From positions 1 to 42,855 of IMG/VR virus record IMGVR_UViG_3300020219_000027: DNA of 42,855 bases, one strand, 5' to 3'. Origin of the DNA: a virus. The translations under genes and the position numbers were made by a program. The notes below the pieces were generated by a model. That model worked only from the letters and a program-made list of their open reading frames with translations. It had not been told where the DNA came from and did not search any database. Positions 302 to 36,936 of this stretch are shown here, one piece after another (the first letter of the stretch is position 1; the number at the start of each line of letters is the position of its first letter).

Positions 302-619
302 ATGTCATCTCAATATTCTGGCTCACTCATAGGAACGGCCATTCCACTCTTCCACCAGACCCCCGTGGTGGCGGTCGCCTTCCCCTCGGCCACTAACGGC
401 AATCTACCCCGCGTTCGCAGCATGTACATTCTCAGTGATATCTCGGTTCCGCTCATCATGACCCTCGGAGCCGCAGAGGTACGCATCCCAGCCAACACCA
501 GCCTTGGCGCCGACTTCTTCGAGCGCTTCAAACTAGACCAGGCCCCGACCTTTCGCCTAGCCACATCCACCGCCCCCCTCTCCACCGAGGCTATCGCGGT
601 CCTTCTCATAGGGGAATAA
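302..619 (+). CDS. Small hypothetical virion-like protein (105 aa)
   Basis: The ATG at 302 follows the previous stop by 2 bases and is preferred over an upstream in-frame TTG at 287. The protein is beta-rich in appearance (alternating hydrophobic residues, many Ser/Thr/Pro) with no signal peptide or membrane segment. It ends AVLLIGE one base before the next ATG, so the two are probably co-translated. No family recognised. Its place in the late block beside a fibre-like protein suggests a virion or tail accessory role (inference). Confidence 0.65.
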   Translation: MSSQYSGSLIGTAIPLFHQTPVVAVAFPSATNGNLPRVRSMYILSDISVPLIMTLGAAEVRIPANTSLGADFFERFKLDQAPTFRLATSTAPLSTEAIAVLLIGE

Positions 620-620
620 G

Positions 621-1139
621 ATGGGACAAATCATCGTTGGCCGCCCCGGCGGCCTGGCCTCCGTCGCAACCTTTCAGACCTTTGTTGGTCGCACGACCTC
701 AAACGTTATCCGCAACAACACCTCCGACGGCGCCGATAACGCCACCATGCTCATTGGCGGCGGCGGGACGATTTCGCAGGTACAGGGCGCATTTCTTGAA
801 TTGCAGGGCAACGAAGTGGCCAGCGTGGGCGGTCGGTTCTTCATTATAAGCGGTAACGTAGCGACCGGCAATATCGGCTTCCAAACCTCCCACGCCTCTG
901 CTTCCATCCTATTTAACAGCGCCACCGGGTCTCCGACCTGGTCTATGGACGGCAATGGCGACTTCCTACAGAACGCCACCAACGGGCGCAGAATACAGTT
1001 TAACAGGGCTAATCAAACTTTCAATTTCGCAGGCACTATGGCGACATCCTCTGCCACAGTGGGCACCACAGCCGTGGCCAACTGGATCGAGTGTCAAGTC
1101 GCCGGAGTCACGCGATTTATACCCAGCTATGCCGCCTAG
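621..1139 (+). CDS. Tail fibre/spike-like structural protein (172 aa)
   Basis: A Gly/Ser/Thr/Asn-rich, beta-strand-like sequence with short repeats such as GNVATGNIGF and GNGDFLQN. The C-terminus (WIECQVAGVTRFIPSYAA) resembles the last strand of many phage fibre or appendage proteins whose ends read 'v.G.tryiP.y'. At 172 residues it is too short to be a whole fibre. It could be a tip or capsid-decorating appendage. The protein at 9062 has a similar composition. Family placement rests on sequence style, not on a catalytic motif. Confidence 0.6.
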   Translation: MGQIIVGRPGGLASVATFQTFVGRTTSNVIRNNTSDGADNATMLIGGGGTISQVQGAFLELQGNEVASVGGRFFIISGNVATGNIGFQTSHASASILFNSATGSPTWSMDGNGDFLQNATNGRRIQFNRANQTFNFAGTMATSSATVGTTAVANWIECQVAGVTRFIPSYAA

Positions 1140-1140
1140 A

Positions 1141-1170
1141 CATGGTGGAATATATATGGTACCATGGACA
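1141..1170. promoter_or_regulatory. Inverted repeat in the gap before the 1187 gene
   Basis: The gap between the fibre-like gene and the next small gene contains CATGGT and ACCATG arms around an AT-rich core, including the perfect palindrome ATGGTACCAT. It may be an operator or RNA hairpin. Nothing else is evident there. Confidence 0.3.
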
Positions 1171-1186
1171 GAACATGGAGTAGCGT

Positions 1187-1399
1187 ATGATCGCACCGCG
1201 AGCGACCCTAATTAAAGTCTTAAAAATACTAGAGCAGGTCCAGCTCGGCGACATCGGCATTAGCGCTCTCACTAGTGCCCGAGAGGCGATCTCTGTGGTT
1301 GGCAACACGCTACCGCAAGACATCGCGGAAGAGGTGCCCGGCGCTAGGTTGATCTATGACATCCCCGCATCTACGGGGCCCAAGAGTGAGGCCACTTAA
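1187..1399 (+). CDS. Small hypothetical protein (70 aa)
   Basis: ATG start 15 bases after a GGAG-like stretch. The protein is mostly helical in appearance (ATLIKVLKILEQVQLG), slightly acidic, with no membrane segment. Its stop overlaps the ATG of the metalloprotease by one base (TAATG), so the two are probably translationally coupled. No family recognised; being coupled to a secreted protease, it could be an intracellular partner, but nothing in the sequence shows this. Confidence 0.55.
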   Translation: MIAPRATLIKVLKILEQVQLGDIGISALTSAREAISVVGNTLPQDIAEEVPGARLIYDIPASTGPKSEAT

Positions 1400-2136
1400 T
1401 GTGCCGCTCACATCGTTCGGTTTTCTTTTCTTTGTTTATCTCCTTGGCTTCTTCGCTGGCGCTTTTGTCGTCGGCGTCTGGGCAGTCTATACCGTTGCGG
1501 GTTATCGGCGTTCCCGGACCGCACTCCTTGACCGCAGCCGAGTTGGACTCTGTGTCCCGTGCGGGCGCGGAGTTGTTATCGTCGGCGGGTGTGCCTGTCC
1601 AACTGAGACGGATCCTGCTATTAGCCACGGACCCATGTGCCCACATTCCAAAGACATTAACTGATGCACAACGAAATTTTTATTGTTACCGTCTTGACGC
1701 CTTCCGCAATAGGCGAGTGGATGGCCGTTGGCTTACCTACACCCTCCAGCCTCCCATGTTTTCGGGAAGTACAAGTTTCATTGGTGGCTTCGCTTCTGGT
1801 ATCTGCACGAGATCAAACTATACGAGATTTGCTTCAGGGAATGGAATCGTCCGAAGCCTTCCGGCAAACCTGCCCAGGCTTAACAGCAGTGCGGGTATTC
1901 TCGCCCACGAGCTGGCCCACTTGCTGGGAGCGCAGCACGACTCCAGTAATTGCAACATCATGTTCCCAGAGCTTGCCAACTGTCTTAACCAAGGCATAGG
2001 ATTTAAGTTTAACCCGTTGGCCCTAACGCAAATTTCACGTTGTAGGTCACGCCGTTTTGTTTTAAGGGCCCGTGGTATCACCTCTATCGCCAGATGCTCA
2101 AGTACGCGAGTGGTCTCGCTACCTAGCAGAAGTTAG
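1399..2136 (+). CDS. Secreted metzincin-type zinc metalloprotease
   Basis: The N-terminus has a basic start, a hydrophobic core and a likely cleavage site near residue 28 (SSASGQ), typical of a Sec signal peptide. Residues 170-180 read HELAHLLGAQH, the extended HExxHxxGxxH zinc site of metzincins (ligands H170, H174, H180; catalytic E171). CNIM at 185-188 supplies the Met-turn, as in adamalysin/reprolysin-like enzymes. Several Cys suggest disulfides in an oxidising compartment. The last ~30 residues are Arg/Ser-rich and overlap the terminase start by 65 bases, so they are probably dispensable. Predicted role: periplasmic or extracellular proteolysis. The substrate is unknown, and such an enzyme beside terL is unusual. 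Confidence 0.85.
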   Translation: MCRSHRSVFFSLFISLASSLALLSSASGQSIPLRVIGVPGPHSLTAAELDSVSRAGAELLSSAGVPVQLRRILLLATDPCAHIPKTLTDAQRNFYCYRLDAFRNRRVDGRWLTYTLQPPMFSGSTSFIGGFASGICTRSNYTRFASGNGIVRSLPANLPRLNSSAGILAHELAHLLGAQHDSSNCNIMFPELANCLNQGIGFKFNPLALTQISRCRSRRFVLRARGITSIARCSSTRVVSLPSRS

Positions 2137-3682
2137 GGCCAAGGACGGCCCAAGAGCATACTGGCAACTCGTGCGCCAGCTTTGCCTGCGCTCACCATGG
2201 TTCATCACCCGAGTGGTCCTTCAGTATCACTGGATGGACGAGGACCTGCACGGCAGGCAGCTTTTAGGTTTCTACGAGACAAACGCGGGTAAGGACACAG
2301 CGGTGTTCATTCCTCGCGGTCACGGCAAGACGCTGACTAGCGCCAGCCGGATCATCCACAAGATACTCAATAATCCGAATACCTCAATCATGTATTCGTC
2401 CGCCACGGAAGAACTGGCCTCTGACTTCTGCGCCATGGTCGGCCAAGAGTTAATGAACAATGAGTATCTACAAAATGCTTTTCCAGACATACTGCCGCAG
2501 TCTAAACAACAGATCGAGAGCTGGGGCAAGAAGGACGGCTACTCCCTACCGGGCCGCAAGCCCCGTGTAGATCCGACCCTCTTCGCCTTATCCTTACTGG
2601 GGAATCCCACAGGTAAACACCCCGACGAGGTATTCATAGACGATCTAATCGTCATGAAGAACAACAACGCCGCGGGCTACGAGAAGGCAGAGCGCTTCAT
2701 CAAGGAGTGCAAAATGCTACTCCCCGCCCAGTCCTGCCTCACCCTTACGGGCACGAGATGGGGCGATGGCGATCCCTATGGGAAGATTATAGAAGGCAAG
2801 ATTCACGGCCAGCAGGGCCCATTTGCCACGATGGTTCTTTCATGCTACGAGGACGACAACCCTAAGAAGCCCCCGATTTATCCCGAGAAGTGTCGTTGGA
2901 CAGCCAAGACCCCTAGCGGATGGACACACGCCAAACTAGAGGCGCGCCGGGCACCGGAGCCAGAGGGCGGACTAGGCAGCTATTTTGACGCGCAGATGCG
3001 CAATGACCCAGCCCCAGAAGAGCGGCAGGACATCCGAGTTGGTGACATTAATAAGTATTACAAAGATGATATGCCCTCTACCAAACTGGGGCATGTTCGA
3101 GCTTTCGGTATTGAAGTACTCGGTGGCGGCGCCCCCATTATATCCCTGGTGAATGAGCAAGCCGACGAGCTTCGCTTTGACATTCCGGTGGTAGAGATAG
3201 GGCGCAGAACGTCACGAGGCGAGACTAAGGCCGACCGTATACGCGCCGCAATGGAGCCGGTTGTTAGGGCCGGTAGATGTTACGCGCAGCCATGGATGCT
3301 CGGTGAGGCAGGAGATAGCGCCGGCTTCGGCTATGAAGTGAGGCGACTAGGCGTAGCCAAACACGACGACATCGTTGACACATTCAGCATGATCATCGAG
3401 CTAGTTGGCGCCAGCTTCCCCGACAATAACGTAAAGCTCCTTGATGTTTACATTGGGGCCGATCTAGCCTGGACCCAAGAGCGCAAATCGGATCACACCG
3501 TCGTCATGGCCGTGGCTGTAGACGCCGAGCGCAATTTCTGGATACTCGATTACGACAGATTCCAGATTAGCCAAGCGAGCGAAATAGCAGCCCGCCTTAT
3601 CAAATTTTTCCGCAAATGGTCGCCCGAAGAGGGAACTACGCCTGGGCAAGTAAAGCGTAATTTTGCACTAACATATAAGTAG
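2072..3682 (+). CDS. terL: Terminase large subunit with a permuted nuclease domain
   Basis: GTG start with AAGGG a few bases upstream. Residues ~79-87 contain a Walker A variant (PRGHGKT), residues 186-191 a Walker B (EVFIDD), and LTGTRWGDGDP (~225-234) matches the coupling motif of phage packaging ATPases. The nuclease motifs appear out of order. Motif II (FGIEVLGGG, E348) and motif III (KHDDIVD, D432/D433/D436) come first. The beta-hairpin with motif I (IGADLAW...SDHT, D464) comes last, followed by the strand and helix that normally precede motif II. In canonical TerL the order is I, II, III. The protein packages DNA into the capsid through the portal and cuts it. All predicted catalytic acids are present, so a working permuted fold is plausible. 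Confidence 0.93.
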   Translation: MVSPLSPDAQVREWSRYLAEVRAKDGPRAYWQLVRQLCLRSPWFITRVVLQYHWMDEDLHGRQLLGFYETNAGKDTAVFIPRGHGKTLTSASRIIHKILNNPNTSIMYSSATEELASDFCAMVGQELMNNEYLQNAFPDILPQSKQQIESWGKKDGYSLPGRKPRVDPTLFALSLLGNPTGKHPDEVFIDDLIVMKNNNAAGYEKAERFIKECKMLLPAQSCLTLTGTRWGDGDPYGKIIEGKIHGQQGPFATMVLSCYEDDNPKKPPIYPEKCRWTAKTPSGWTHAKLEARRAPEPEGGLGSYFDAQMRNDPAPEERQDIRVGDINKYYKDDMPSTKLGHVRAFGIEVLGGGAPIISLVNEQADELRFDIPVVEIGRRTSRGETKADRIRAAMEPVVRAGRCYAQPWMLGEAGDSAGFGYEVRRLGVAKHDDIVDTFSMIIELVGASFPDNNVKLLDVYIGADLAWTQERKSDHTVVMAVAVDAERNFWILDYDRFQISQASEIAARLIKFFRKWSPEEGTTPGQVKRNFALTYK

Positions 3683-3884: not shown

Positions 3885-5990
3885 ATGAAGAATGAGATCG
3901 TTTCCAAAACTAAGAAGTCGTCCGACGCCGAGCTGCGCCGCATCCGTGCTGTCACCAGCCAGATAAAGCGTTGCACCGATCAGACTGGGGCGATCCGCGC
4001 CAACTGGGCCGACAATCAAACCATGTTCCGATATGGTTCACAGTTTACCGGGAAGCAGCCCTGGCAATCTGAGTTTTCCGTTAATAACTTCGCCAAGTCC
4101 ATCCGCGCCGCGCAAGGGCACATGGTCAACACCCTAGTTAATCAACCCGACTGGTGGGACCTGACCCCCAAGAACGCCCGCAACCAAAGGGCCACTTTCC
4201 TCGCTCGCCCTATCAAGGCACTACTCAACTACCATCTAGAAGCCGCCAATTTCAAACGCCACGCCGGCACCTTCCTCATGCAGTCCCTCATTTCCCTGGG
4301 GATCATTCAAGTTGGCTTTACCAAGAAAATGGTTCTCAACCCTGAGTGGGTACTAGAGAAGACCAAACAAGAGCGCCGCAAAGAACAGTCCCGCCTCTCG
4401 CGCTCGGTCGCCAATCCAGAGACTACCGACGACACCGACCTGGCCGCCCAGATGGAGCAGGCCATTGAAGAGCTAATGTCTGAAGCGCAGGGCGAACCGC
4501 CCCGACCAGCCGCGCAGCAGTTGAAGCAGTACATTCAATATGGCTGCCTCGATTTCAAGGAGCCCATCCCCGACTTCTTCTACTACGAGCCGACCGCTCA
4601 TTATATGCAAGAATCCTCGTGGTGCGCCTTCGAGTATCAAGTCACCCTGTCCGACCTCAAGCAGCAGGCCCGCATCGGATATCTTTCCAAGTCAGCCGTC
4701 AAGCGCGTCAGTCCAGCCCCCATCGAGGCAAAATGGGCCGAGGCTAATCAGCGCTATAAGGGCAACCAGGAAAATGTATCTTCCGATAAGGTCACCATCA
4801 CCGTATATTACGGCCCCCTTATAGAGGACGGCGAGATCGTCAAGGATATGTATTTTGCCATCATTGCCAACGGGAACGTTATCCTCAAAGACGGCGACTA
4901 CCCCTATTGGGAACCTCCCGGCCACCGGACTCCAGTGGTTGCAGCAGCAGTCCGCCAGATCCCCTTCTCTCCCACGGGTGCCGGTATTGGCGATAACGCC
5001 AAGCAGCTCCAGCGCCAGATGGACTCCAACCTCCAACTTCAATGTGACTCATGGCGGCTGAACATCGGCGGAATTAACGTAGTTAATCGCAACTCCCTTG
5101 TAGATAAATCTCAACTCGATGAGGGCATCTATCCCGGTAAGACCATCGAGGTCCGCGATAAACCCCGCGACGCCTTCGAGCGCGTGACTCTCACGAGCAA
5201 CGTCGAAAATCAAGTAGCCCCTATCAATGAGGTTCTCCGTAACGCCATTGACGATCAGACCGGCAATATGGACGCCGTGTCCTCCGGTCCCAATCTCAGA
5301 AGCCGCACCTCCGCAGCGGAGATTGATCAACGTGTATCCGGCGCTCAGTCGAACCTAAACATCATGGCCTTGGACCTAGAGCAGGACTTCCTGATCCCCG
5401 TCCTCCAAAAGTGCTTAGCCCGCATATTGCAGTTTGGTCTTGGCGAGATACAGAGCAACGCCGAATTGCGTGGCCTCTTCGAGGAGGAGGAATTACAAGC
5501 CCTTCTAGAGCTATCCGATGCAGACCGCCTAGAGGTTATTCAGAGCTTCTTCAAGTTCGAGATTGATGGGTTCTCCGCCAATCAGGACAGGAAAGAGAAG
5601 GCCGCTCGGCTGACAGAGTTTATGCAGGTTGGCAGTAGCAACCCCCTCTTGAACGCGATGGTCAACTGGCCAGAGCTTATTACTCAATATGCGCGTCAGC
5701 TAGACATGGATCCCAACACATCCCTCGTCGTGAATCAGTCCGAAGCGGCTCGCATTGTGGCAGAGAATCAAGTGCTAATGCAAAACGCCTTAGTGCTCCC
5801 TAGCCCGCAAGATAACGACGAGATGCACATGCAGCAACATGCCCCCCTAGCGGGATCACCGTTTGCCACGCAGGCCCTACAGCAGCACGTACAAATGCAC
5901 CAGCAGCAGATGATGCAGAAACAGGCCCAAGCAGAGCAGGGCCAAGGGCAAGGCCAAGAGCAAGGTGGCGGAGAGCCGCCCGCTCAATAG
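3885..5990 (+). CDS. Portal protein (head-tail connector, 701 aa)
   Basis: A large protein directly downstream of terL and upstream of scaffold and capsid, at the normal length for podovirus portals. The N-terminal third contains a portal-like region (KQPWQSEFSVNNFAKSIRA, MVNTLVNQPDWW). The middle is mixed alpha/beta (FSPTGAGIGDNAKQLQRQMD), and the C-terminus is a long Gln/Met-rich tail ending in Gly/Gln repeats, like the flexible barrel end of P22-type portals. It would form the dodecameric DNA channel at one capsid vertex. The ATG at 3885 has only AAGG upstream. The frame stays open back to 3828 without a standard start codon, with an AGGGTGGG sequence there, so an upstream non-standard start is possible. 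Confidence 0.88.
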   Translation: MKNEIVSKTKKSSDAELRRIRAVTSQIKRCTDQTGAIRANWADNQTMFRYGSQFTGKQPWQSEFSVNNFAKSIRAAQGHMVNTLVNQPDWWDLTPKNARNQRATFLARPIKALLNYHLEAANFKRHAGTFLMQSLISLGIIQVGFTKKMVLNPEWVLEKTKQERRKEQSRLSRSVANPETTDDTDLAAQMEQAIEELMSEAQGEPPRPAAQQLKQYIQYGCLDFKEPIPDFFYYEPTAHYMQESSWCAFEYQVTLSDLKQQARIGYLSKSAVKRVSPAPIEAKWAEANQRYKGNQENVSSDKVTITVYYGPLIEDGEIVKDMYFAIIANGNVILKDGDYPYWEPPGHRTPVVAAAVRQIPFSPTGAGIGDNAKQLQRQMDSNLQLQCDSWRLNIGGINVVNRNSLVDKSQLDEGIYPGKTIEVRDKPRDAFERVTLTSNVENQVAPINEVLRNAIDDQTGNMDAVSSGPNLRSRTSAAEIDQRVSGAQSNLNIMALDLEQDFLIPVLQKCLARILQFGLGEIQSNAELRGLFEEEELQALLELSDADRLEVIQSFFKFEIDGFSANQDRKEKAARLTEFMQVGSSNPLLNAMVNWPELITQYARQLDMDPNTSLVVNQSEAARIVAENQVLMQNALVLPSPQDNDEMHMQQHAPLAGSPFATQALQQHVQMHQQQMMQKQAQAEQGQGQGQEQGGGEPPAQ

Positions 5991-6942: not shown

Positions 6943-7878
6943 ATGTCACATGCATGGGGGACTTTCTCGTCCCTTATTAACGTAAACGAGCTGTCTGAAT
7001 ATGTTCGTCACGCAGCGCTTGACATGTTGGGCTTTGCTCAGCTATGTAACGCGCCTACTGGCGGAGCGATTGGACGCGAGAAGGGAGATACTGTTCAGTA
7101 TACGTATTACCCTGATGTCACCGTCGCCGGTGGAGAGCTTACTGAAACTGATGAAGTCCCTACCACGTCCGTAACGCCGGTCAAGGGCACGTATGTCATT
7201 AAGGAGTTTGGTAACGCTGTAACGCTTACCTCTAAACTTCAGGACCTTTCGCGCTTGGATGTTGAGTCCGATCTCGTACAGGCCCTTGTTAAAGACATGA
7301 AGCGTCTCGAAAACAGCCAGGCATATGATGCTTTCAATAGCACCCATTGGCTAGCTAGCTTCGCGACCACTGACGAGTTCGTAACTAACAACACCCTAAC
7401 CGCCGCTGCTACGCAGCAGCTAGACTTGGACAACTTGCGTTTTGTTGTTCGACAGGCCGAGAAGCGTTTGATCCCGTACTTTGACGGTGAGAGCTATGTT
7501 TATGCTACTGGCGTAGATAGCTCGGATGCCCTTTGCTATGACACTGTAGTAACCAATCTCCTCAAGGAAGATTCAGGTCGCGCAGCACTCAATGGCGAAG
7601 TCGGTCGTATCGGTCGTTGCCGTATAATTCGTGATACCCAGAAGATCGCCAAAGTTGGTGGATCATCCTCGGGTGCAGGCGCACAGCTCGATGAGGGTTT
7701 CCTTATCGGCGCAGACGCCGTAGTTCACGAAGTGGCAACCCCGTGGGAGATGCGCGCAGAAGATCGCGATCTTGGACGTAAGGTGAAATTAGGATATCTC
7801 GGTAAGATGGCTTGGGTCAAGATGTTGTCCCAGACGCTCCATAGCCGCGAGATGGTTATCAAGGTCGATTCTCAGTAA
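6943..7878 (+). CDS. Major capsid protein (311 aa)
   Basis: Directly follows the scaffold and has a good Shine-Dalgarno (GGAG) before ATG 6943. Length and composition fit an HK97-fold coat protein. The N-terminal arm is followed by features seen in coat proteins of N4/P22-type phages: GDTVQYTYYP, EFGNAVTLTSKLQDLSR, a long spine-like helix (LVQALVKDMKRLENSQAYDAF) and a C-terminal region with GRCRIIRDTQ and a 'GADAVVHE' loop. It would form the icosahedral shell. Family-level assignment (N4 gp56-like) is tentative; the coat role is well supported by context. Confidence 0.87.
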   Translation: MSHAWGTFSSLINVNELSEYVRHAALDMLGFAQLCNAPTGGAIGREKGDTVQYTYYPDVTVAGGELTETDEVPTTSVTPVKGTYVIKEFGNAVTLTSKLQDLSRLDVESDLVQALVKDMKRLENSQAYDAFNSTHWLASFATTDEFVTNNTLTAAATQQLDLDNLRFVVRQAEKRLIPYFDGESYVYATGVDSSDALCYDTVVTNLLKEDSGRAALNGEVGRIGRCRIIRDTQKIAKVGGSSSGAGAQLDEGFLIGADAVVHEVATPWEMRAEDRDLGRKVKLGYLGKMAWVKMLSQTLHSREMVIKVDSQ

Positions 7879-24707: not shown

Positions 24708-25123
24708 TTGCCAGTACTCCCAAAACCTTTATCGTTTCTTACTGTTTGCCCTAGCGCTTCGCGGGCCACCTGTTCGCCGTGCCGTGCGTCGAGGTGCGGT
24801 ACTATAATCATCTGCGCCACCCTGTCACCAGGTTCGACTACCAGCGGCGCGTTGCCATAGTTACCCAAAATCACAACGATCTCCCCTCTGTATGACGAGT
24901 CTATCACACCCGCGTGGGCGTAGCATCGCTTCACGGATAGGCTAGACCTTTCTTTAATTATCCCCACAAAACCACTAGGTACGGCGGCGTATATGCCTGT
25001 CTTAATTTGCCCCTGCTTGCCGGGCAATATAATAATCTGCTCCGCCGCCGCTAGATCCCAACCTGCGTCCCCGGCCCTTGGAGGTAGGAGGGGGCCGTGC
25101 CACTTGAACTTCTTCCTTGTCAT
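24704..25123 (-). CDS. dut: dUTP diphosphatase (dUTPase)
   Basis: All five motifs of trimeric dUTPases are visible in order: DAGWDL (19-24), ERSSLS (58-63), AHAGVIDSSYRGEI (69-82, catalytic D75), GDRVAQMIIVP (99-109) and GFGSTG (133-138). At 139 residues it matches the normal subunit length. It hydrolyses dUTP to dUMP plus diphosphate, keeping uracil out of phage DNA and feeding thymidylate synthesis. Its 5' 120 bases lie inside the end of the sigma-factor gene in another frame, so the N-terminus and the sigma C-terminal tail share DNA. Confidence 0.95.
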   Translation of the reverse strand: MTRKKFKWHGPLLPPRAGDAGWDLAAAEQIIILPGKQGQIKTGIYAAVPSGFVGIIKERSSLSVKRCYAHAGVIDSSYRGEIVVILGNYGNAPLVVEPGDRVAQMIIVPHLDARHGEQVAREALGQTVRNDKGFGSTGK

Positions 25124-25712
25124 TCAATATGCCCTTATTGTAGCGCCTGGTAGCGATGGCACGAATCTTTTGCATATAGCGAAAGTGCGCGCTCTTAAAC
25201 GCTGAGTAGCCAATCCCATACTCCCTAGCCAAGTCTATAAATCGTTCACCATCAATAGCGCGCTGCATCGCCTCGCTGCATCCCGTCATGCGTAGTGCGT
25301 TAGTGACACACGCCGCCATCCTGCGCGTATCAACATCTACCTCGGCGCTGCGGTTGGTAACCAACATGTCCCGCCCGGTCTCGTCGCCCACTAGCGCATC
25401 GAGATTTTCCGGCGCGCCAGAGACACGGTTGACCACCTCGCCTTCGAGACGTCCACGGCGTCCAATCTCCCTAGCCGCATTATATGCCACCGTCATCGCC
25501 CATCCCCGGCGCTTACCAGGGTCTCGGCATTGGTCCCAATGCTGCACGATGGAGATCCATGCCGCCTGTACTGCGTCATACGCATCGTCGGTACGCCCTC
25601 CCAAAACGCGGTTCGCCAAACCCCGCATGTCACTGTTATGACTCATGAAAAACGCTTCGAACTCTTCATTAGTGTATGCCATGACGGACATCATAGCTTC
25701 AAAGCCCATCAT
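25002..25712 (-). CDS. ECF-type RNA polymerase sigma factor (236 aa)
   Basis: Region 2-like helices at residues ~35-95 (DAYDAVQAAWISIVQHW, GWAMTVAYNAAREIGRR) and a region 4-like helix-turn-helix at ~150-190 (AMQRAIDGERFIDLAREYGIGYSAFKSA in two pieces) give the sigma2-sigma4 layout of extracytoplasmic-function sigma factors. No region 1 or 3. A basic, Gly-rich tail (~residues 205-236) overlaps the dUTPase gene. It would bind host RNA polymerase and direct it to phage promoters, replacing the missing phage RNA polymerase. Several possible ATG starts lie within the first 14 codons; the one at 25712 is used here. Confidence 0.75.
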   Translation of the reverse strand: MMGFEAMMSVMAYTNEEFEAFFMSHNSDMRGLANRVLGGRTDDAYDAVQAAWISIVQHWDQCRDPGKRRGWAMTVAYNAAREIGRRGRLEGEVVNRVSGAPENLDALVGDETGRDMLVTNRSAEVDVDTRRMAACVTNALRMTGCSEAMQRAIDGERFIDLAREYGIGYSAFKSAHFRYMQKIRAIATRRYNKGILNDKEEVQVARPPPTSKGRGRRLGSSGGGADYYIARQAGAN

Positions 25713-25722
25713 GTGCAAGCGC

Positions 25723-27850: not shown

Positions 27851-28510
27851 TTAGAATTTAAACACGCGTGACAGAGCGATGAACAGGCGCCCCTCCATGA
27901 GTATGTCGTGTTTGACATACTTCTCTATCGTCTCTAGCTGCCCCAGTTCGTAGAGATTTTGCACCGCGCCGCCGTCTAGTGTGCGCCCCTCTTCGTCCTT
28001 CAGCGTCTCAATGCCGTAGCTCTCCGCCAAGTCCTTCATCCCATACCCCTTGAAATGAAACATCAGATCAATAGGATCCCATTTACCTTGCGGGCAATTC
28101 AAACTCAAGTCCGCTGCGTTGAGTGCGTGTGATAGGATCGGCAGGTCGAACCCCATGATGTTGTAGCCGACCAGTCGATAGTTATTGATCTCGGCTAAGT
28201 AGTCGACCAGAAATTTCATGATTTTGTTAGGATCATCGGACGCCATGCCCTCGATGTTGGTTACCTGATTACCCGTAATCAATCCCAGTCCAGCCGCCAC
28301 AACCCTAGCGCCGCCAACGCGGAATTTATGACGCTCGGCTAGCCCCTCTATAAATTCCTGCTTATGCTTCGCGATCTTTTCCGGGTCTTTATAATTGGAC
28401 GGTGGGCGATATTCATCTTCCGCTTTTTTGAGATGGGCCTGCGAGATGTTGACCGGAATGGTTTCTAGATCGAAAACTACACTGGTTTGTGAGGGACGGT
28501 TGTATGCCAC
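27851..28510 (-). CDS. DnaQ/PolB-like 3'-5' exonuclease
   Basis: The three exonuclease motifs are present: FDLET (13-17; D14, E16), YNIMGFDLPIL (116-126; D122) and YVKHD (198-202; YxxxD with D202). The spacing fits the stand-alone exonucleases related to the proofreading domain of family B polymerases. No polymerase domain follows and none was found elsewhere. It could proofread, trim recombination ends or degrade host DNA. Overlaps the helicase gene by 34 bases. A conserved WDPIDLMFHFKGYGMKDLA lies between motifs II and III. Confidence 0.82.
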   Translation of the reverse strand: MAYNRPSQTSVVFDLETIPVNISQAHLKKAEDEYRPPSNYKDPEKIAKHKQEFIEGLAERHKFRVGGARVVAAGLGLITGNQVTNIEGMASDDPNKIMKFLVDYLAEINNYRLVGYNIMGFDLPILSHALNAADLSLNCPQGKWDPIDLMFHFKGYGMKDLAESYGIETLKDEEGRTLDGGAVQNLYELGQLETIEKYVKHDILMEGRLFIALSRVFKF

Positions 28511-29949
28511 GGTAAATCCTGGTTGAGAGTAGACATCTTTTCTTTAAGACGTGTTGCTCGCAAATTCGACGCATTATTTCGCACAGCAATCTGCAATGCG
28601 TGAGTCGATCCGATAATTAATAGCAATCTTTTAGCTCGCGTAACTGCCGTGTAGATTAAATTGCGCGTGAGTAACGGACCGTGACTATCATCCACCACCA
28701 GGATGACGCACTCCATCTCCAGCCCTTGCGCCCTGTGTACTGACATCGCAAATGCTAGCGATAGCTGCCGGGCGTTGTGTGGCGAATAGCTAATGATGCG
28801 CCCGTCCCATAGCCGCACCACCAATCCACCAACGGCCTCATTCACTGATTCCACGGTACCCATGTCGCCGTTGAACACCCCCTTGGTATCTATCATGTAG
28901 TTATTGACGCGCTGACACACCATGTCACCCTTGCGAGCGACGCCGTCATGTATGCTGACTCCGGCTGCGGTGCTTGGATTAAGTTTTTGCTGTAGTGCTA
29001 TGTTTAGTTTGACCACGCCGAGCGGTCCAACATTGGTGGGCGCTATCACCACCACCGAATCGGGCCGCACCTTCAACTGTGCAGGGAGCCGGCTTGCGTA
29101 ATGGAGTACGTGCACCAACGCCTCGGCCTGAGTGGCCGCCGGTAGCATGACGACATCACTACTACCGTCGCCGGGCAGTGATAGGGCGGAGACCGTGCCT
29201 TGATTAATGTCAGCCGCTAGTTTGCTGATACCGGAACCCTCGCCCTGCCGGAATATGCGGGTCAAGTACGAAACGCCAACGGGGCCGGATTCGATGAGGT
29301 CCGCGAAGACTCGGCCTGGCCCGACCGACGGTAGTTGATCCTTGTCGCCAACCAACACTAGCACTGCGTAGCGGGGTATGCCCTTCACAAGTGCGGCGCC
29401 TAGGTGGACATCGAGCATCGACGCCTCATCTATAATGAACACGTCCGCCGGAACAGGATCATATTCGTTGTGCAAAAAACCATCCTTCGTCCACCTTAAC
29501 AGGCGATGTATTGTGGATGCCTCCATATTACATACCTGCCCCATGCGCTGCGCGGCTCTTCCCGTAGGCGCAGCTAGGACGACACGCTTACCGAGCTTGC
29601 GGAACGCTTGTGCAATAGAGTTGACCATATAGGTCTTGCCGGAGCCGGGGCCGCCCGTAATGATGTAGGTGCCAATCTGGGGTATCTGGGTCATTGCCTC
29701 GTATTGCTCATCCGACAGGGTGCTGTACGTCTTGCGATGCGCGGGTGATGATTGAAAGGCGCGGGCCTGTGAGTCGTCGACCGTCACATGGTTAGCTATG
29801 GCCAGCTCTGCGGCGAGTGTGTCGCGCTTTGATGCTAGTGTGCCCTCAATACATATACGCTCATCGGGGTCCTGGTGGCCTAGTGGAACCTCGACGTATG
29901 TGTCGCCCTGGCGCTCCGCCTGGAGTATGATGCTATATAAGTCAGCCAT
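28477..29949 (-). CDS. RecD2-like SF1 DNA helicase (490 aa)
   Basis: The ATG at 29949 follows GGCGAGAG; an upstream in-frame start at 30006 adds no recognised domain. Walker A GGPGSGKT (99-106), Walker B FIIDEASM (171-178), GDKDQLPSVGPG (motif III) and TAVTRAKR (motif VI) match SF1B helicases of the RecD/TraA type. The N-terminal ~90 residues are a short, probably non-catalytic region. Translocates 5' to 3' and would unwind DNA at forks or drive annealing, perhaps with the adjacent exonuclease and SSB candidate. Length is close to phage Dda/RecD2 proteins, so the gene appears complete. Confidence 0.88.
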   Translation of the reverse strand: MADLYSIILQAERQGDTYVEVPLGHQDPDERICIEGTLASKRDTLAAELAIANHVTVDDSQARAFQSSPAHRKTYSTLSDEQYEAMTQIPQIGTYIITGGPGSGKTYMVNSIAQAFRKLGKRVVLAAPTGRAAQRMGQVCNMEASTIHRLLRWTKDGFLHNEYDPVPADVFIIDEASMLDVHLGAALVKGIPRYAVLVLVGDKDQLPSVGPGRVFADLIESGPVGVSYLTRIFRQGEGSGISKLAADINQGTVSALSLPGDGSSDVVMLPAATQAEALVHVLHYASRLPAQLKVRPDSVVVIAPTNVGPLGVVKLNIALQQKLNPSTAAGVSIHDGVARKGDMVCQRVNNYMIDTKGVFNGDMGTVESVNEAVGGLVVRLWDGRIISYSPHNARQLSLAFAMSVHRAQGLEMECVILVVDDSHGPLLTRNLIYTAVTRAKRLLLIIGSTHALQIAVRNNASNLRATRLKEKMSTLNQDLPWHTTVPHKPV

Positions 29950-29950
29950 G

Positions 29951-30388
29951 CTACTCTCGCCACTCCTCAACGATGGCGACCTCCTGAGATATTCCCAGGC
30001 GCACACCTTCTGTTACCATAGACGCGGTACGAAACCTAACCATATGATGATTAGCATCGATAGAATAGCGCGCCTCTTTTGCCGATACGTGCAGTGAGTG
30101 CAGTAGATTGTCCGGCCCGATAATCGCGTATGCTAGATTATAATTAGAGAGAGGGGCGCGGCCATAGATATCGTGATGCCAGGGCGGGCGGGTCAGCGTG
30201 ACTAGCGATTCGACGTAGCGACGAGCGCGGGGGCTCATGTCGCAATACCAGAGCCGGCATGCGCCGCGATGCTTAGAGCAAAACTCCACCGCCGCTGCAT
30301 GGTCACCGAGTACGCACAACGGAGTTACGTGCCCCTGCTTGCCGCATGTAGACCACTCTGACACTGGTATGTAAAATCTACTTCGCAC
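29951..30388 (-). CDS. Hypothetical protein (145 aa) upstream of helicase
   Basis: Soluble, Arg/His/Cys-rich with scattered CxxxH-type residues (CSKHRGACRLWYCDMS). Terminates one base before the helicase ATG, so coupling is likely. A zinc-binding role is possible from Cys spacing but not definite. No family recognised. Confidence 0.55.
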   Translation of the reverse strand: MRSRFYIPVSEWSTCGKQGHVTPLCVLGDHAAAVEFCSKHRGACRLWYCDMSPRARRYVESLVTLTRPPWHHDIYGRAPLSNYNLAYAIIGPDNLLHSLHVSAKEARYSIDANHHMVRFRTASMVTEGVRLGISQEVAIVEEWRE

Positions 30389-30623: not shown

Positions 30624-30889
30624 GAATCAATCTCCCCCTTCACTGGACTTAGCCCTTCTTCTTCTAGGAACCTCTGGTAGTACGTATCCTCGCAAGGGTG
30701 ATACTGGGAGCACATGCTCATTAGCTCCACGCACCGCCGCAGAAACTCACGACGATCCTCGTCGAAGAATGTCGTGTAAGCGGGATAGTGTATCGTGTTA
30801 CCAAAACTGTTGCGGTCGTTGCGGGCCATCGTGCGCTTCCCAATCTTGCTGAGCTGACGAGGCGCCCTCTTCTTTTGTGGTGGATTCAT
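30620..30889 (-). CDS. Small hypothetical protein, tandem paralog B (89 aa)
   Basis: Paralog of the 30378 gene (same DRREFL, RC..LMS, YY and EGL positions) with a slightly longer basic N-terminus (PQKKRAPRQLSK). Start overlaps the RNA ligase stop by one base. Divergence between the copies is substantial, so the duplication is old or under diversifying pressure. Function unknown. Confidence 0.65.
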   Translation of the reverse strand: MNPPQKKRAPRQLSKIGKRTMARNDRNSFGNTIHYPAYTTFFDEDRREFLRRCVELMSMCSQYHPCEDTYYQRFLEEEGLSPVKGEIDS

Positions 30890-31986
30890 TAGTCGGTCCC
30901 CCCTTTCACCTTCAGAGGCAGGTCAAAGTCACAGGCATAGTGCTCCCTCTCATACTCTTCGACTATGTGCGCCAGCGAGCCCAGCCGTATGCCCTCGGCG
31001 GACTCGGGCGCGGGCTCGGGCTCAAGGGCTACAAGTCGCCTAGCCTCGGTGCGCGCTGAGTTATACTCCTCTGTCCTTGTGAGGGATTCGTTGAGCAATT
31101 GCTCCTTATACCATTCCGCCAGGCCGGCCACGACGCCACGGGATATACGCTTCCATGCTTCGTTGAATAGCACTGCTTTAATCTCGTCGCCCGCCTCTAT
31201 TTCTATGTCGTTCATAACGTCTCGCATGAGAAACCCAATGTCTTGGGGCGAATCAGATAGCGTACCTAGTTCTCGGGCCCTCATAACCGCCTTTTGCCAC
31301 CGTGCCGGGGTACGATACGCAGCGATGAGACGGTCGTTTAGGTCTCCGCGATTCGGATTTTCCTCCCGCCAGCTATGGGCGTGTACCTCCTTGAACGCCT
31401 CGCTAACGAACTTAGCACGAAGCACCGTTCCGTCGGGACCAAACATGGCGTAGTTCTTCACTACCACGCCCTCGATCTTTTGCGAGCCGAGGATGCTAGT
31501 TCGCTCTAGGTATTCACGGAGCTGCGTAACATCTTCCAGGACGCCATGATGCAGGAGGGGCACCGTTTCCATGCCGAGCCGCCTGAACTCCTCCGCCTTA
31601 ACTACTGGGTCTAGGTACACTTCCTGCGCGGTATTGATATCGAAGCCAATTATATGCCGCACCGGAATCCGGTCATACGCCAGTGCGTTGTGCTTAGCGC
31701 GCCGTAGATATTCGCCGCGATATGTCCAGCCGGGGCGCAGTAGGGACCTTACTTGCTGCGCCGCATCAACCGCCGCCTGAAACATTTTATCCGGCGCCAT
31801 GACGTGTAGCTCCACCCCCTTGCTTCGGCATCGCAGCTCGCCATCGAAAATACCGAATGAGAATTGTGAGCCGTCAATCTTTTCTTCTATAATCACAGGG
31901 CCCTGGAAAATGTCCTGGACGATCTTGTGGCCGACCGGATGTAACTTGCCATACTGGTGCCAGCTTGTGCTGATTGCTTGTTTCAT
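30889..31986 (-). CDS. Rnl2-family RNA ligase (365 aa)
   Basis: EEKIDGSQ at 34-41 is nucleotidyltransferase motif I (adenylated K36). RGEYL (~90-94) is motif III-like, EGVVVKN (~190-196) is motif IV and AKFVSEAFKE (~210-219) contains motif V lysine plus the Rnl2-type 'F.E'. The length is near T4 Rnl2, with an extra helical C-terminal part of about 140 residues. It would seal nicks in RNA duplexes or repair cleaved RNAs, for example after host anticodon-nuclease attack, though no tRNA gene is carried. DNA-ligase activity cannot be excluded. It lies among replication genes. Confidence 0.85.
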   Translation of the reverse strand: MKQAISTSWHQYGKLHPVGHKIVQDIFQGPVIIEEKIDGSQFSFGIFDGELRCRSKGVELHVMAPDKMFQAAVDAAQQVRSLLRPGWTYRGEYLRRAKHNALAYDRIPVRHIIGFDINTAQEVYLDPVVKAEEFRRLGMETVPLLHHGVLEDVTQLREYLERTSILGSQKIEGVVVKNYAMFGPDGTVLRAKFVSEAFKEVHAHSWREENPNRGDLNDRLIAAYRTPARWQKAVMRARELGTLSDSPQDIGFLMRDVMNDIEIEAGDEIKAVLFNEAWKRISRGVVAGLAEWYKEQLLNESLTRTEEYNSARTEARRLVALEPEPAPESAEGIRLGSLAHIVEEYEREHYACDFDLPLKVKGGTD

Positions 31987-35814: not shown

Positions 35815-36190
35815 GCAGGATCAGTTAGATAAGTTCGTGAAAGCCATCCGCGTCACGCAAAGCGTGAACTTCCCCAAACTGGCCAAGGATGTGGGGCTGT
35901 CCTTTACGAGCGACATACTGCCAGCGCTACGCGGTACGGGTCCGCTCCGGGCGCAGGTACAGGAGGTGCTTATCGAGATTAAATACGAACTGCTCAATAA
36001 TAGCCTGGAAATGGCGAAGGCCGGGAAGTCCAAGTACGGGACAAGCCCCGACGCTGCCGCGATTAAGGCGATGATCGGGCATATAGATTCCGGCGTTCTA
36101 TTAGGCGGGGACTCTGAAGATCATGCGAATGGGGCCGACATCTCTAATCACCTAGATAGACTAGGGCTAGCCACCAAGGTTCAATCATAG
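35804..36190 (+). CDS. Small helical DNA-binding candidate, possible terminase small subunit (128 aa)
   Basis: The ATG at 35804 is preferred over a GTG at 35798. The N-terminal segment QSVNFPKLAKDVGLSFTSDI could be a helix-turn-helix, followed by long helices (LRAQVQEVLIEIKYELLNNSLEM) and a low-complexity tail, a pattern like small terminase subunits. No other TerS candidate was found near terL. It ends convergent with the recombinase gene, overlapping by 10 bases. The role is inference. Confidence 0.45.
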   Translation: MTTRQDQLDKFVKAIRVTQSVNFPKLAKDVGLSFTSDILPALRGTGPLRAQVQEVLIEIKYELLNNSLEMAKAGKSKYGTSPDAAAIKAMIGHIDSGVLLGGDSEDHANGADISNHLDRLGLATKVQS

Positions 36191-36936
36191 TCCACGGCGC
36201 GAGTCACAAACCTACGCCTGTCATACCGTGCGACCATCTCCTGATTGGAATGTCCCGTCACGCGTTGCACCTCAGCGTATGACCATCCCGCCACTAGGCA
36301 CCGAGTCACGAACGTGGCGCGAGCGCAATGTGGGCCAAGATTGCCCAGCCCAAGGCTAACTGCCCGCTCCCTAAACTTACTCGATAACCTTTGCGGCCCC
36401 ACTCTGAAGAGCGAGCCCGTGCGGTCATGGATGTACGCCTCTACAATGGGTTGAATTTTCATCGGTATTAATAGCTCCCTATACTTACCATCTTTGGGCG
36501 CTGTAAGTCGCACGGCAAGGCGACCGCCGTCCACTCTGAAGATGTCCCTACGCGCAAGCTTGGCTACCTCTGACCTACGTAGCCCCAGGTAGAAAAGCAG
36601 GGACCAAGCACAGCGCCATCTCAGTATGGGCTCTTCCATAAACCTGCGCACCTCCGCGTCAGACAGGGCGCGAGTAGGCGATACTAGATTGTTCGGATTG
36701 GGGCGCTTGATGCCATGGTCAACTGGCGTACCACAATACCGCAAGTAGCTTTCCACTGCCGAGAGATATAGGTTGCGAGTCGACGCCGATAACTCTGAAA
36801 GCGTAGAAAACCATCCGCGTATGCCCCTTGCGTTGAGCGGTGCGTTGGAATTGGCCCACGAGTCCAGGGCTACGCGATATGCGCGCCTAGTGCTTGGTGC
36901 CTTGTCTATAAAGAAGTCGTCCAAGTCGCTAATCAT
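36181..36936 (-). CDS. Tyrosine recombinase (integrase/resolvase type, 251 aa)
   Basis: Catalytic residues are recognisable: R120 in GLRRSEVAKL, K151 in PKDGKYREL, H203 and R206 in PHCARATF, H229 in VTGHSN and Y238 in ARYDR, in the order and spacing of lambda-type integrases. The core-binding domain (residues 1-90) is short but present. It could mediate lysogeny or multimer resolution. There is no repressor, excisionase or obvious attachment site nearby, so a resolvase role or a lost lysogeny module are alternatives. Confidence 0.87.
   Translation of the reverse strand: MISDLDDFFIDKAPSTRRAYRVALDSWANSNAPLNARGIRGWFSTLSELSASTRNLYLSAVESYLRYCGTPVDHGIKRPNPNNLVSPTRALSDAEVRRFMEEPILRWRCAWSLLFYLGLRRSEVAKLARRDIFRVDGGRLAVRLTAPKDGKYRELLIPMKIQPIVEAYIHDRTGSLFRVGPQRLSSKFRERAVSLGLGNLGPHCARATFVTRCLVAGWSYAEVQRVTGHSNQEMVARYDRRRFVTRAVDYD

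Follow-up and report, generated by a model that had tools for sequence, protein, structure and literature searches.

The window, by which we mean the whole 42,855 bases of the virus record IMGVR_UViG_3300020219_000027, carries a large terminase (TerL) gene at 2072-3682 whose nuclease motifs stand in the order II-III-I. In all likelihood the gene encodes a genuine TerL with an RNase H-fold nuclease that was naturally circularly permuted in the ancestor of a small podovirus-like phage clade. A profile search matched the product of 2072-3682 to PHROG 38 (terminase large subunit; E-value 3.7e-43). The product has an N-terminal packaging ATPase with Walker A and Walker B motifs, alignment and a fold model point to an RNase H-fold nuclease with a motif I aspartate, a motif II glutamate and a motif III aspartate, and the gene lies beside portal and head genes. 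As read from its sequence, the product is a TerL by ATPase, motif set, genomic position and homology.

A first-pass annotation, made from the letters alone, had described this frame, and we found it open with all motifs as quoted: the linker string DINKYY is residues 325-330, FGIE is 345-348, KHDDIVD is 430-436, YIGADLAW starts at 460 and includes D464, and SDHT is 473-476. That annotation had labelled motif III "HDD, D436"; the residues are present, but HDD is 431-433 and D436 is an acid three residues further on.

Order of the nuclease motifs

We divided the window TerL into the ATPase (residues 1-330), segment B (331-450) and segment C (451-536), the last containing the motif I beta-hairpin and helix (451-516, including D464 and D474). 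Searched with profiles of 39 canonical TerLs, the protein matched profile positions 9-315 at residues 33-333, 376-489 at 326-445 and 329-391 at 455-517. The swap recurred with PHROG 38, a profile built independently of this analysis, which matched in the order 267-525, then 606-702, then 545-607 in the window protein and about 260-540, then 606-711, then 545-607 in all three genomes with permuted TerLs. Both kinds of profile bear out the earlier claim that motif I follows motifs II and III. It had also been proposed that motif I was moved and not duplicated, and this held: blocks 545-607 and 606-711 of PHROG 38 each match once, in swapped order, therefore motif I was not copied, and no second motif I was found upstream of motif II with the canonical profiles. 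The order was II-III-I in three viruses and I-II-III in every canonical TerL checked. Both halves of the domain occur once with their order exchanged (PHROG 38) and with cut points in loops (secondary structure), as in a circular permutant, and both junctions are in frame and between secondary-structure elements.

Comparisons of single segments agreed. Segment C was 27-33% identical to the motif I region of four of five Zobellviridae-type TerLs and 23% identical to that of the fifth, and in these five the region directly follows the ATPase. When the segments were re-joined in canonical order, two BLAST alignments against P0002 became one and the score rose from 71 to 106 bits. Used alone, segment C matched TerLs, and segment B as a tblastn query matched many annotated TerLs with weak E-values. 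A whole-protein MAFFT alignment smeared the ends of canonical fragments, and a domain-only alignment of the three permuted sequences with fragments of 39 canonical relatives was used instead. In it the match was complete over all rows for E348, K386, H431, D432, D433, D464 and D474, and nearly complete for D436. Since motif order is not needed for the chemistry of the family, the protein keeps its membership of TerL, though not of the canonical TerL architecture. The permuted TerLs end in ...ALTYK (window), ...ALSYK and ...ANTYR.

Table 1. Features of the TerL gene in the window.
Feature	Position	Strand	Basis
TerL gene, 536 aa, nuclease domain very probably circularly permuted	2072..3682	+	Open frame, GTG start
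N-terminal packaging ATPase and linker, residues 1-330	2072..3061	+	PHROG 38 267-525; canonical profile positions 9-315, independent E-value 6e-25
Walker A PRGHGKT, residues 81-87	2312..2332	+	P81, R82, H84 and K86 invariant with canonical relatives
Walker B FIDDL, residues 188-192	2633..2647	+	D190 and D191 invariant in alignments
Nuclease segment with motifs II and III, residues 331-450, first in nuclease domain	3062..3421	+	PHROG 38 606-702; catalytic columns match 39 canonical relatives
Motif II glutamate E348	3113..3115	+	Invariant in 3 permuted and 39 canonical sequences
Motif III H431-D432-D433...D436	3362..3379	+	H431, D432 and D433 invariant; D436 nearly so (N in two canonical rows)
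New junction, loop from motif III helix to motif I strand, residues 449-458	3416..3445	+	Variable among the three permuted TerLs; helix 432-448, then strand 459-465
Moved motif I segment (three strands, helix and tail), residues 451-536, last in nuclease domain	3422..3679	+	PHROG 38 545-607; canonical motif I profile, independent E-value 1e-13
Motif I aspartate D464	3461..3463	+	Invariant in 3 permuted and 39 canonical sequences
C-terminal tail, residues 517-536, ends ALTYK	3620..3679	+	Canonical ...RFGGV tail absent; low confidence in AlphaFold2 domain model

Permuted and canonical relatives

A database search for the same order, as the first-pass annotation had suggested, found two further viruses whose TerLs have the order II-III-I and matching cut points. 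An alignment-based scan of IMG/VR returned L014 (IMGVR_UViG_3300006805_000011, 40,677 bases), with a TerL 53% identical to that of the window and collinear over residues 3-535, and a second IMG/VR scan returned L094 (IMGVR_UViG_3300023223_000787, 41,083 bases), with a TerL 43% identical; both identities extend over the whole length, and the permuted TerLs are collinear among themselves. Third codon positions differ at 63-77% of aligned codons among the three permuted genes, and amino-acid identity among their products is 39-56% in the nuclease segments versus 42-55% in the ATPase. The third-position divergence together with the similar amino-acid identity therefore excludes shared contamination, and by these sequence comparisons the conservation of the nuclease segments, like that of the ATPase, fits purifying selection on the nuclease.

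The TerL, portal and coat genes lie in the same order in all three genomes; in the window a portal-like gene (PHROG 332, head-tail adaptor) at 3885-5990 and the coat gene at 6943-7878 lie downstream of TerL. In a tree, the three permuted TerLs formed one clade (Shimodaira-Hasegawa-like approximate likelihood ratio test 100) beside Zobellviridae-type TerLs, on long branches that leave its exact placement uncertain. The shared gene order and the single clade are most simply read as the outcome of one permutation event followed by vertical inheritance.

Canonical order, with motif I first, was seen in 73 of the 73 full-length relatives checked among the matches listed in the first IMG/VR scan. 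The viral scans were pattern-based and read from the matches listed, and permuted terminases too distant from the three could escape them. A viral scan with the L094 TerL had only L094 itself among the matches listed, a single-sequence scan of viral contigs found no relative, and an alignment with distant TerLs yielded no usable pattern. Bacterial and archaeal genomes, scanned twice, likewise gave no relative, and no cultured phage in the collection searched had a match spanning the whole window TerL.

Zobellviridae-type TerLs (Lentibacter phage ICBM1, Roseobacter phage SIO1, VpV262; IMG/VR L015-L093) have a homologous ATPase, linker and nuclease residues, and in Lentibacter phage ICBM1 and other fetched relatives TerL adjoins the portal gene, as in the window. 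However, their motif I precedes II-III and they end in a conserved RFGGV-like tail, and the window TerL has neither. Within the T7 gp19/PHROG 38/NF033889 terminases, PHROG 38 covers all parts of the window TerL with 545-607 and 606-711 swapped, and NCBIfam NF033889 matches its ATPase below the cut-off. The nuclease domains of T4 gp17 and of G20c/P22 (RuvC-like RNase H fold), compared via Foldseek and VIA only, have the motif set D, E, HDD in common with it, but their strand order is canonical.

A search of non-subscription literature found nothing relevant on permuted terminases, in line with the earlier statement that no phage terminase with the order II-III-I had been described. CIRPIN (PMC12667903) gives one permuted pair of RNase H-like domains and does not mention terminases or phages; it has in common with our case the general point that domains of this kind can be circularly permuted. 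No form of 'permut' occurs in the main text of a survey of the RNase H superfamily (PMC3985635). On sequence grounds, the permuted TerL departs from known TerLs in motif order, and this order is described for no other phage terminase we found.

Three side observations concern related contigs. A portal scan returned only L010 (98% identical), a contig that ends inside the portal and leaves TerL uncovered. At 4012-4218 of L032, the motif I of a canonical TerL, MDVAWTEQRESGGKDPDYT, resembles that of the permuted clade, DLAWTQERKSDHT; the likeness may point to the parental lineage or may be due to chance. The record of Roseobacter phage SIO1 (L104, AF189021) holds TerL sequence twice in opposite orientations, at 579-1390 (+) and 4084-3274 (-); the minus copy diverges within motif III, and the doubling is probably an assembly fault in that record.

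Predicted fold and alternative explanations

AlphaFold2 run on the three permuted sequences alone placed strand 342-349, helix 353-366, strand 373-376, helix 386-399, strand 403-405 and helix 432-448 in the motif II-III part, and strands 459-465, 476-483 and 489-497 with helix 502-516 in the motif I part. The modelled succession of elements is that of an RNase H fold beginning at beta4. A second model covered residues 312-536, with an alignment of the three permuted domains and unaltered fragments of the 39 canonical relatives. This domain model was one compact domain (predicted local distance difference test [pLDDT] 87.8, predicted template modelling score [pTM] 0.86) with the same element order (strands E, helices H: E28-37 H42-55 E62-65 H75-88 E92-94 H122-137 E146-153 E165-172 E178-186 H191-205). 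The motif I hairpin had been expected to complete the fold, and it is predicted to be part of this one compact domain of rotated RNase H order. The matching of the catalytic columns to 39 relatives, the conservation of the nuclease and the confident predicted fold likewise support the suggestion that the permuted RNase H fold is intact and probably functional.

In structure comparisons with VIA-align, the top match was the PhiV-1 TerL (Z 7.2, 134 aligned, model 4-142 on chain 296-536), with the HK97 TerL lower (Z 4.5). Both matches span the linker and the motif II-III block only, which a sequential aligner would be expected to give on a permuted chain, and Z values of this size are not decisive alone. 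Matches in BFVD include many terminases, mostly over part of the domain.

Several observations weigh against a permuted RNase H nuclease. Segment B of the window protein scored only 9 bits against the canonical profile, though that of L014 reached 23.5 bits. The three-sequence model is less confident than the domain model (mean pLDDT 51, and 55-83 over most of the nuclease), and it is the unbiased one of the two, the canonical fragments in the other alignment biasing the domain model towards the RNase H fold. Foldseek against the PDB gave no TerL in the best 50 listed (the top matches being Maf-like and other alpha/beta folds), although this is expected for a permuted chain.

We consider it very unlikely that the nuclease domain is a vestige in which the acids persist without cutting while another nuclease makes the packaging cut. 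A vestigial terminase nuclease domain has a precedent in the C-terminal domain of the phi29 ATPase, as given in an excerpt of PMC7672431, yet the permuted TerLs, from three divergent viruses, show no variation at the catalytic residues, and their II-III and I segments are conserved about like the ATPase. Moreover, canonical TerL and PHROG 38 queries match only the one TerL gene in each of the three genomes, and no other TerL-like gene was found with them. Domain swapping, in which the C-terminal motif I block completes the nuclease of a neighbouring subunit in the terminase ring, strikes us as very unlikely: the modelled monomer is compact and confident (as the pTM above indicates) and the link from the motif III helix to the motif I strand is short and predicted to be ordered, even if the new C-terminal location would in principle permit assembly in trans. 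The chance that assembly or recombination scrambled a canonical gene in this contig alone is next to nil, for although the record is metagenomic and no second contig over the TerL of the same species was found among the matches listed, the independent contigs L014 and L094, strongly diverged at third codon positions, share its order and cut points, which disposes of the misassembly that had been raised as a refutation, and the junctions respect both frame and secondary structure.

A natural circular permutation would have proceeded from the canonical order of ATPase, linker, motif I block (beta1-3 and helix A) and motif II-III block (beta4 to the last helix). A short loop (about 449-458) would have linked the old C-terminus, after the motif III helix, to what used to be the start of beta1, and the chain would have been opened between helix A and beta4. 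The ATPase linker would now enter at the motif II strand, and the protein would end after helix A with a new tail replacing the canonical RFGGV tail. Such a gene may have arisen when the nuclease domain was duplicated in frame and both ends were then trimmed; no direct repeat marking this origin was found in the TerL gene, and no DNA trace of duplication is left. D464, E348 and the HDD/D436 cluster would continue to make up a single two-metal active site, which would cleave the DNA concatemer in the manner of other TerLs. Two-metal chemistry is expected for the motif set D, E and HDD of the T4 gp17 and G20c/P22 nucleases, according to excerpts of PMC5389553 and PMC7617512. From model and sequence, the domain is most likely a two-metal TerL nuclease of the ordinary kind, with the chain taking another path through it.

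Neighbouring genes and meaning for terminase motors

The start of the TerL gene is overlapped by an open frame at 1399-2136 (+) with a metzincin-like protease signature, HELAHLLGAQHD (Reprolysin_5, E-value 3e-4, below the cut-off), which is unusual in a phage head module. The coat protein (encoded on the plus strand) resembles the coats of Escherichia phage PTXU04 and Vibrio phage D279, and the TerLs of these two phages are of a different, canonical type; the head and motor genes therefore differ in their nearest kin. On the minus strand, the window encodes a sigma-70 region 2 protein (25002-25718), a RecD-like helicase (28477-30006), an RNA ligase (30889-31986) and a tyrosine integrase (36181-36936).

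The window TerL is probably the first case in which the nuclease domain of a terminase has been circularly permuted in nature; the rearrangement would have become fixed in a phage lineage and would thus change the coupling of the nuclease to ATPase and portal. TerL is regarded as a marker common to all tailed phages and built to a single fixed plan; in motor models the linker is assumed to meet the nuclease on the side of motif I, and the end of the nuclease to touch the portal. If the permutation is real, the motor connects to the nuclease through the motif II strand, the free C-terminus lies on a different face, and these changes may alter the way in which contacts of the ATPase and the portal act on the nuclease. 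Profile-based annotation may split or miss permuted terminases, because Pfam finds no nuclease domain in the window protein or the L094 TerL; the L014 TerL has sub-threshold matches only. As a natural permutant that would keep the chemistry with both attachment points changed, this TerL would offer a ready test of which contacts are needed for the switch between translocation and cutting.
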